Origin: a virus
Reading direction: 5' to 3' (one strand)
Length of the DNA stretch: 25,713 nucleotides
Virus record (IMG/VR): IMGVR_UViG_3300006616_000068
Span: 1-25,713 of that record
Shown here: piece after piece, positions 2,878 through 7,165 of the stretch
How the letters are laid out: the number at the start of each line of letters is the position of its first letter
How positions within the stretch are numbered: position 1 is the first letter of the stretch
Notes under the pieces: generated by a model
Told to the model about the DNA's origin: nothing
What the model saw: the letters and a program-made list of their open reading frames with translations, nothing else
The model's database searches: none
Position numbers and translations under genes: made by a program

Positions 2878-2881
2878 GGAG

Positions 2882-3037
2882 AGAGAAATCATGATAAGAT
2901 ACTTAATTAAAAAAATCTTTGGTGTAACTATAGTTACTTCATTTGGAAGAGCAGATGATGGAATTGACCATCAAACTCGACATAGACAAAAAGTAACAAA
3001 AATACTTAAAGAACAAAAAAGAAAAGAGAAATCATGA
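2882..3037 (+). repeat. 13-bp direct repeats at the two start codons flanking a small gene
   Basis: AGAGAAATCATGA occurs at 2882-2894 and again at 3025-3037. The spacing is 143 bases, and each copy contains a start codon: that of the 48-aa ORF and that of the exonuclease gene. Recombination between the copies would remove the small ORF exactly and leave the exonuclease start behind the strong GGAG at 2878-2881. Confidence 0.6.
2891..3037 (+). CDS. Small basic protein of unknown function (48 aa)
   Basis: The ORF runs from ATG 2891 to TGA 3035-3037, with a strong TAAGGAG 9-10 bases upstream that overlaps the resolvase stop. The product starts MIRYLIKKIFGVTIVTSFG, a hydrophobic/basic stretch that could form an amphipathic or membrane-associated helix. 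It ends in a very basic tail (KILKEQKRKEK). It overlaps the exonuclease start by 4 bases (ATGA). It is bracketed by 13-bp direct repeats and has the best ribosome-binding site in the area, so it may be a recently inserted small gene. I do not recognise a family. Confidence 0.6.
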   Translation: MIRYLIKKIFGVTIVTSFGRADDGIDHQTRHRQKVTKILKEQKRKEKS

Positions 3038-6538: not shown

Positions 6539-6817
6539 ATGAAGAAATACAAGAACACTAGAACAAATGTATTGATGGAAGCTGTTAATTTAATAAATGG
6601 CGACAGAGAAAAAGATTACGGCACGCCAAGAGAAAATTTTAATAAAATAGCAAAAATGTGGACAATATATATGAACCATGAAGTTACTGAATATGATGTA
6701 TGTAACATGATGGTGTTACTAAAAATTGCTCGATTAAGTCAAAACGCACATACAGACAGTAGTATTGATGCGGCTGGATATGCGGCGCTTGCAGCAGAAA
6801 TGTCAGAACCTTGCTAA
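6539..6817 (+). CDS. DUF6378-like small phage protein (92 aa)
   Basis: The protein contains GDREKDYGTPRENF near residue 20, then KMWTIYMNHEVTEYDVCNMM, LLKIARLSQNAHTDSSIDAAGY and AALAAEM. This pattern (DR..DYG, a central DV..MM..LKIAR, a D..IDxAGYAAL helix) is that of the phage family I know as DUF6378. It is an all-helical protein that recalls MazG-type nucleotide pyrophosphohydrolases in its acidic helices, but no activity is established to my knowledge. It starts only 2 bases after the helicase stop; its ribosome-binding site (AAAGGA) lies within the helicase end, so the two are co-translated. A nucleotide-pool role is a guess. Confidence 0.75.
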   Translation: MKKYKNTRTNVLMEAVNLINGDREKDYGTPRENFNKIAKMWTIYMNHEVTEYDVCNMMVLLKIARLSQNAHTDSSIDAAGYAALAAEMSEPC

Positions 6818-6840
6818 CACAGATACTTTTATAGTATATT
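6811..6840 (+). promoter_or_regulatory. Candidate sigma70-type promoter for the intergenic RNA
   Basis: TTGCTA (6811-6816) and TATATT (6835-6840) are separated by 18 bases and match the -35 and -10 consensus at 4/6 and 5/6 positions. The expected transcription start, about 7 bases downstream of the -10 box, falls at 6846-6847. That is the first base of the structured element that follows. AT-rich DNA gives chance matches, so the evidence is mainly positional. Confidence 0.35.
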
Positions 6841-6845
6841 AAATT

Positions 6846-6944
6846 AAGTGGACCTTTCTCCTCCTCCTTACACTTTGCTCAAGTGTTAGTCCACTTTACT
6901 AGGGCTGCGTCTGTTCTTTCCTTTCTCCCGACGCAGCCCATTTT
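6846..6944 (+). ncRNA. Predicted ~100-nt small RNA with anti-Shine-Dalgarno loops
   Basis: Two stem-loops lie in a 141-base gap between genes. Hairpin 1: AAGTGGAC (6846-6853) pairs with 6889-6896 and encloses an inner stem ACACTT/AAGTGT (6870-6875/6881-6886). This leaves the tract CTTTCTCCTCCTCCTT exposed on its 5' side. Hairpin 2: a perfect 10-bp GC-rich stem (6902-6911/6930-6939) has an 18-base pyrimidine loop ending TTTCTCCC and is followed by ATTTT. CCTCCTCC and CCTCCTT mimic the 3' end of 16S rRNA and are complementary to ribosome-binding sites. This layout recalls the alphaproteobacterial CcsR/'cuckoo' RNAs, whose hairpin loops carry CCUCCUCCC. A promoter-like pair lies exactly upstream. 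Alternatively the element is a leader or attenuator of the gene at 6959. Confidence 0.5.
6902..6944 (+). terminator. Candidate intrinsic terminator
   Basis: A perfect 10-bp stem, GGGCTGCGTC with GACGCAGCCC, has an 18-base loop and is followed by A and four T. The stem is far more GC-rich than its surroundings. The T-run is short and the loop large, so termination may be partial. It would end the predicted small RNA and attenuate the early operon before the 68-aa gene. Confidence 0.5.
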
Positions 6945-6958
6945 AAAAAGGTTAAGAA

Positions 6959-7165
6959 GTGTCTGAATTCCGCATTAAATTAACATTAGACATTACTGGA
7001 GAGCATACAAAAGATGCTGATGAGGAACTTGAGGAGCTTTGTAATTATATTTCTGACAGACTTTTAATAAGCGGCAAAAGAGCCGTAATGCAAGCTTTAG
7101 CAGAATGTATAATAGAATTACATGATGATGAAATATTAGATCAAGCAGGTTTAACTATGCATTGA
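6959..7165 (+). CDS. Small acidic protein of unknown function (68 aa)
   Basis: The start codon is GTG at 6959, with AAAAAGG (6945-6951) 7 bases upstream; there is no suitable ATG nearby. The product has an N-terminal beta strand (FRIKLTLDITGE), then acidic helices (ADEELEELCNYISDRLLI, VMQALAECIIELHDDEIL). It has no membrane segment. The helical part looks well formed and wobble positions are A/T-rich, so coding is likely. It is the last gene of the + strand block, immediately after the structured RNA element, which could control it. I recognise no family. Confidence 0.6.
   Translation: MSEFRIKLTLDITGEHTKDADEELEELCNYISDRLLISGKRAVMQALAECIIELHDDEILDQAGLTMH

Follow-up and report, generated by a model that had tools for sequence, protein, structure and literature searches.

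The window, by which we mean the whole stretch of DNA analysed (25,713 bases, a virus record), contains a plus-strand operon with genes coding for a DNA methyltransferase, a Holliday junction resolvase, an exonuclease, an ssDNA-binding protein, a primase-helicase and a DUF6378 protein. The last of these genes is followed by a gap of 141 bases, and then by the gene for a 68-aa protein (Table 1). The initial annotation described this as the only sizeable gap in an early operon. The operon can be presumed early from its gene content, and the remark on the gap looks right, since the interval 2878-3033, equally long on paper, contains, in the sequence of a related locus (L082), a short ORF preceded by a GGAGAG site. 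The DUF6378 protein bears the name 'phosphofructokinase' in PHROGs (phrog_474, phrog_1167), as it does in phage CRP-811; this label is unlikely to be correct for a 92-aa protein that adjoins replication genes. The 68-aa protein matched no Pfam or PHROGs family. It belongs to a family of acidic proteins of 65-68 aa with a Q-x-LAE motif and a C-terminal His (window, 6959-7165; L095:7660-7860; L211:1041-1238). Its AlphaFold model is a two-helix hairpin of moderate confidence (pLDDT 74), a fold for which no meaningful match was found in the PDB.

Table 1. Features of the module in the window and the grounds on which each was assigned.
Feature	Positions	Strand	Grounds
Upstream module gene, DUF6378 protein	6539..6817	+	PF19905, E = 9.1e-31; also upstream in the clades read
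Predicted sigma-70-type promoter	6811..6840	+	TTGCTA, 18-nt spacer, TATATT; spacing conserved across clades
Predicted small RNA, ~99 nt, two hairpins	6846..6944	+	Folding z = -5.36; covariation; G-U versus A-C
Hairpin 1	6846..6896	+	Folding and covariation
Anti-Shine-Dalgarno (aSD) tract CTCCTCCTCCTT, putative base-pairing seed	6858..6869	+	Rarity, exposure, core kept in every clade
Single-stranded linker TACTA	6897..6901	+	Alignments
Hairpin 2, pyrimidine-rich loop TGTTCTTTCCTTTCTCCC	6902..6939	+	Covariation in 10/10 pairs; pairing in 100% of cells
Short T tract following hairpin 2, like that of an intrinsic terminator	6940..6944	+	ATTTT in the window
Downstream module gene, 68-aa acidic protein, GTG start	6959..7165	+	RNA directly upstream in 76/76 loci found with the protein

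The promoter-like boxes noted initially are present, the -35 box at 6811-6816 and the -10 box at 6835-6840. Taken alone they are at chance level (37 such sites in 12 kb versus 38.8 expected), yet a TTG and a TA core (TAnnnT) at a spacing of 18-19 nt was found in 24 of 24 representatives of all clades. The transcription start predicted from the boxes lies at ~6847 and hairpin 1 begins at 6846, in agreement with the expectation that transcription would start at the beginning of this hairpin. Computed folding of the 134-nt region gave -35.8 kcal/mol (z = -5.36), a value as good as which was obtained in none of 200 shuffles. Hairpin 1 has an outer stem (6846-6853 with 6889-6896) and an inner one (6870-6875 with 6881-6886) separated by an asymmetric internal loop, the 5′ side of which carries the pyrimidine tract; the junction between the two hairpins reads ACTAG, ACTG or ACTAC across clades. 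Two hairpins and a terminator-like end had been proposed. The hairpins stand, while the end is not a separate terminator element: it consists of hairpin 2 itself, followed by ATTTT.

Conservation of the RNA extends to at least five groups of uncultured marine viruses. Clade A comprises loci L002-L031, the primase-helicases of which are 77-99% identical, with L028/L030 as an outlying branch; here the RNA lies at the same place wherever the sequence reaches the gap. Clade B was found by a pattern scan and gave E = 1e-7 to 1e-10 with model R1, and clades D and E were found by a scan with the downstream protein. In genomes with a primase-helicase about 70% identical, the gap after that gene contained no RNA; several of these genomes (clade C) carry the whole module of DUF6378 gene, RNA and small gene elsewhere, reversed with respect to the primase in the loci read. 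One contig of 61,867 bases (IMGVR_UViG_3300025570_000015; loci L180 and L183) holds two copies of the module ~36 kb apart, perhaps because two related phages were concatenated or fused into a chimera during assembly.

The stems proposed in the initial annotation are conserved in these relatives, with strong compensatory changes. A MAFFT alignment of all clades was structurally unsuitable; in the model-guided alignment used instead, which is biased towards the structure, 20 divergent sequences from all clades showed 19 of the 21 base pairs changed on both sides yet still paired (82 double-changed cells; 0 of 500 shuffles), with 98% of cells paired versus 31-51% in shifted controls. A structure-free MAFFT alignment of 13 sequences (A4) showed changes on both sides in 10 of the 21 pairs, again with 0 of 500 shuffles. 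There were 20 G-U cells and no A-C cells, which indicates that selection acts on the plus-strand RNA, and the lengths of the members (74-116 nt) argue against a conserved reading frame.

The window contains a single copy of the decamer CTCCTCCTCC (6858-6867; 0.02 expected), which is unpaired with a probability of 0.91-1.0 in computed folding. The exposed pyrimidine tracts reported initially are thus real; those reading CCTCCTCC and CCTCCTT share a single loop, however, that of hairpin 1 (6858-6869), rather than lying in two, and the hairpin 2 loop of the window holds CTTTCCTTTCTCCC, with no CCTCC. Although the stems change, a CTCC or CCTCC core is kept in hairpin 1 of every clade: CTCCTCC in clades A, B and D, CCTCCTCCC in L028, CCTCCC in clade C and TTTCTCCC in clade E. 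A second tract, in hairpin 2, is found in clades A, B and D in varied wording (CTTTCTCCC, CTCCCTCCC, TTTCCTCAC, TCCTCCTC); this motif is lost in L028 and in clades C and E. Four clade D loci (L186, L187, L195, L204) have a clear aSD tract in the hairpin 2 loop too (TTCCTCCTC or CTCCTCCTTTC), and are for this reason the nearest to a two-motif cuckoo design. The T tract 3′ of hairpin 2 occurs in clades A, C, E and L028, and is absent from clade B and most of clade D. Two-hairpin antiterminators such as HK022 put are known, and hairpin 2 with its T tract resembles an intrinsic terminator; the region might therefore be a transcription element only, that is, a promoter combined with either a terminator or an antitermination RNA of the put type where the early operon ends. 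We consider this very improbable, since it leaves unexplained why the pyrimidine core of hairpin 1 is conserved and exposed and why this core recurs in hairpin 2 loops in several clades, and since clade B has no T tract.

The RNA lay directly upstream of the small gene in all 76 loci found via the 65-68-aa protein (model R2); these are loci and not independent events, as some contigs are near-duplicates and two loci lie on one contig. The RNA was never found without this gene behind it, and the protein family was met only beside the RNA. Such strict coupling keeps alive the main alternative explanation, in which the RNA would be a cis-acting 5′ leader of the small gene: the promoter would drive both RNA and gene, and the hairpins would tune termination or translation, for example by pairing of the hairpin 1 tract with the gene's own Shine-Dalgarno (SD) sequence. 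About 11-25 nt separate the 3′ end of the RNA from the start codon, and the lack of a U tract in clade B and most of clade D is likewise in keeping with a leader. We nevertheless regard it as rather unlikely. Other ribosome-binding sites (RBSs) that pair with the hairpin 1 loop at least as well as that of the small gene amount to 82% in the window, 89% in L014, 100% in L195 and 64% in L070; the gene's own RBS ranks better in L119, L191 and L213 (20-29% of the others as good). Pairing in cis with the downstream RBS was thus rejected as a preferred interaction, energies not favouring it in most clades. Further, the loop remains rich in CUCC despite variation in the neighbouring SD (AAGG, GGAG, GAAGG), transcription would tend to end at the U tracts that precede the gene in clades A, C, E and L028, and an alternative antiterminator pairing was not apparent by eye.

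The resemblance to the small RNAs (sRNAs) of the host group was analysed with covariance models in both directions. The alpha-r14 model of Rfam (RF02344, NfeR1 family) was recurrently the best family for the phage RNAs, which it matched over its full length but always below the cutoff: it gave 18.3 bits in the window and at best 34.8 bits (E = 0.0077, in L013), the gathering score being 58.8. It was not among the matches in the scan of clade B, D, E and L028-type loci. The CcsR model (RF02791; gathering score 65.3 bits) matched none of the phage loci scanned. Its cutoff is strict: of 100 genomes of Rhodobacteraceae, the host family, 81 had a match at E ≤ 0.001 and five passed, so cutoff-based annotation misses most CcsR loci in this family.

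In the opposite direction, model R2, built from the phage RNAs only, was run over 296 Rhodobacteraceae genomes and 385 Alphaproteobacteria. In the former, the matches at E ≤ 0.1 were two phage contigs in one MAG and loci in eight genomes; these loci have CCTCCTCC hairpins, mostly in tandem arrays (E = 0.001 to 0.08 for one genome). A DUF1127 gene, confirmed by Pfam, adjoined all five of the host loci tested, and both RF02791 (CcsR1) and RF02344 matched all six of those scanned. In the 385 Alphaproteobacteria, eight of ten further loci corresponded to mmgR/alpha-r8 (RF00519) or to SorX/BjrC1505. Two R2 matches, L278 (G682:C263) and L279 (G658:C27), had no Rfam family at E ≤ 0.1; they are possibly undescribed aSD sRNAs, or else false matches. 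The matches outside phages are individually weak, and R2 responds to a CTCC tract combined with GC-rich hairpins; the searches therefore demonstrate likeness of design, which falls short of proof of common descent. Homology to CcsR by way of the ACTAG linker was rejected, this linker being present in only 13 of 157 host hairpin pairs. The covariance check called for at the outset was thus mixed, with a best family that stays below its cutoff and a phage-only model that lands on CcsR/cuckoo arrays and on other alphaproteobacterial aSD sRNAs. The term 'cuckoo'-like finds support, and membership in the family does not.

The cuckoo family, as reportedly defined by Reinkensmeier and Giegerich (2015), has 2-4 adjacent hairpins with variable stems and CCUCCUCCC in each loop. 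The phage RNA has two adjacent hairpins with variable stems. Some of its members (L019, L028, clade B) have the exact CCUCCUCCC motif in hairpin 1, but in none was it seen in both loops, so that a single loop at most carries it. Alpha-r14/NfeR1 shares with the phage RNA the adjacent hairpins, the variable stems and the CUCCUCC-type loop tracts. NfeR1 has three hairpins, the CCUCCUCCC motif of each lying in unpaired regions (PMC10746234), whereas the phage-borne RNA has two hairpins (CUCCUCCUCCU in hairpin 1 and CUUUCUCCC in hairpin 2 of the window), an asymmetric inner stem in hairpin 1 and a score below the cutoff. The alpha-r8/MmgR/SisA-D RNAs (RF00519) combine the aSD decamer UUUCCUCCCU with a terminator hairpin (PMC12559287), and the clade C phage L070 carries the comparable TTTCCTCCC; in alpha-r8 this motif follows a weak hairpin, whereas the phage RNA has it within hairpin 1.

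The CcsR/cuckoo RNAs of the DUF1127 (CIN1) locus (RF02791) resemble the phage RNA in their two-hairpin units and CCUCCUCCC-type loops. In the host, however, they form tandem arrays behind a DUF1127 gene and are cut from a precursor (PMC10253847), while the phage RNA stands singly behind a DUF6378 gene, with a predicted promoter of its own, and precedes an unrelated small gene whose product has no Pfam family. CcsR and ccaF1 are cotranscribed, and the CcaF1 protein affects CcsR (PMC10253847, PMC8307010); the similar architecture would fit a decoy that soaks up host RNA-binding factors, namely Hfq, RNase E or the DUF1127 protein CcaF1, the handlers of CcsR-type hairpins. Little credence is given to such a decoy, for which the exact aSD tract is not obviously needed. 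The 65-68-aa protein, for its part, may be a partner of the RNA.

The tract also matches CCUCC, the core of the 3′ end of 16S rRNA. The RNA could on this account be a general competitor of translation initiation, a mimic of the 16S rRNA tail that broadly masks host SD sites while phage mRNAs escape. The SD 4-mer core was present in 55% of the genes of the window and in 50% of related phage genes versus 35% of host genes; phage SD signals are thus at least as strong as those of the host, and no escape is visible. Very strong partners of the loop were less frequent in phage (6%) than in host (13%), a difference paralleled in shuffled controls (3-4% versus 8%). As no avoidance of SD signals was apparent in the phages, the general titration of ribosomes suggested initially finds no support, and a role of this kind is scarcely probable.

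The host is likely to be a marine member of the Rhodobacterales, to judge from one phage contig binned in a Rhodobacteraceae MAG and from similarity to roseophage proteins: the primase-helicase is similar to that of Roseobacter phages CRP-8xx and a virion protein is 56% identical to that of Octadecabacter DB virus 2. The module itself was absent from those roseophage isolates and from the other cultured phages examined (CRP-831/823/811/406, Octadecabacter DB virus 2, phiM5 and MW202879 in all). The downstream protein was absent from 50,697 phage records, and DNA searches for carriers among cultured phages gave no matches. Among 395 Rhodobacteraceae genomes, the MAG with the phage contigs was the only one in which the small protein was found, apart from one weak partial match in an 812-residue frame.

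The features common to alphaproteobacterial aSD sRNAs are found in the phage RNA, namely an exposed aSD tract, a structured RNA and a predicted promoter and terminator (the T tract being absent from clade B and most of clade D). NfeR1 silences mRNAs by base pairing between its aSD motifs and their translation start regions (PMC10746234), SisA silences mRNAs through an aSD motif at translation start regions (PMC12559287), and CcsR1-4 target the flhR mRNA (PMC8307010). Since the phage RNA agrees with these RNAs in its exposed element and its polarity, silencing in trans of messages with purine-rich RBSs is the most economical reading. We consider it fairly probable that the gap encodes a trans-acting phage sRNA of the alphaproteobacterial aSD type that occludes the RBSs of mRNAs. 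Its own promoter inside the replication-gene operon would drive the RNA, which would end at hairpin 2 where a U tract follows, and the two hairpins would expose pyrimidines in their loops, with CUCCUCCUCC in hairpin 1 and frequently another tract in hairpin 2. The loop would pair in trans, probably with Hfq, with the purine-rich RBSs of selected mRNAs; the targets are most likely host transport, metabolic or stress messages under the control of host CcsR, alpha-r14 or alpha-r8, so that the host aSD regulon would be augmented or hijacked during infection. Regulation of the phage's own methyltransferase was also considered; pairing with this RBS is strong in the window (-13.8 kcal/mol) but not clearly conserved, and this candidate was rejected.

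The phage sRNAs that we found described are mostly sponges or antisense RNAs, many of them from enterobacterial prophages, and no phage aSD sRNA of this type was found in the literature, coverage of which was thin for subscription journals. Host aSD sRNAs are already known; what appears new is a phage-borne one whose architecture and module are its own. Two phage-encoded RNAs of E. coli prophages, AgvB and AsxR, rewire host riboregulation (PMC12559287, PMC12197685), as proposed here, but they antagonise a host sRNA; the phage RNA has the polarity of host aSD sRNAs, and should therefore imitate rather than antagonise them.

The covariance model, seed and module define an exact RNA family that can be searched for in infection transcriptomes. 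More tentatively, divergent marine phage groups could possibly be using an RNA that imitates host aSD sRNAs, in an obligate module with a possible partner protein (compare CcaF1 and CcsR), to switch the post-transcriptional stress and nutrient network of the host during infection. As the RNA resembles the silencing sRNAs of their probable hosts, a host tool for gene silencing may have been copied or captured by these viruses. A structured aSD sRNA shared by several groups of marine phages would imply that the riboregulatory layer through which marine Alphaproteobacteria control stress and nutrient responses is also manipulated by their viruses.
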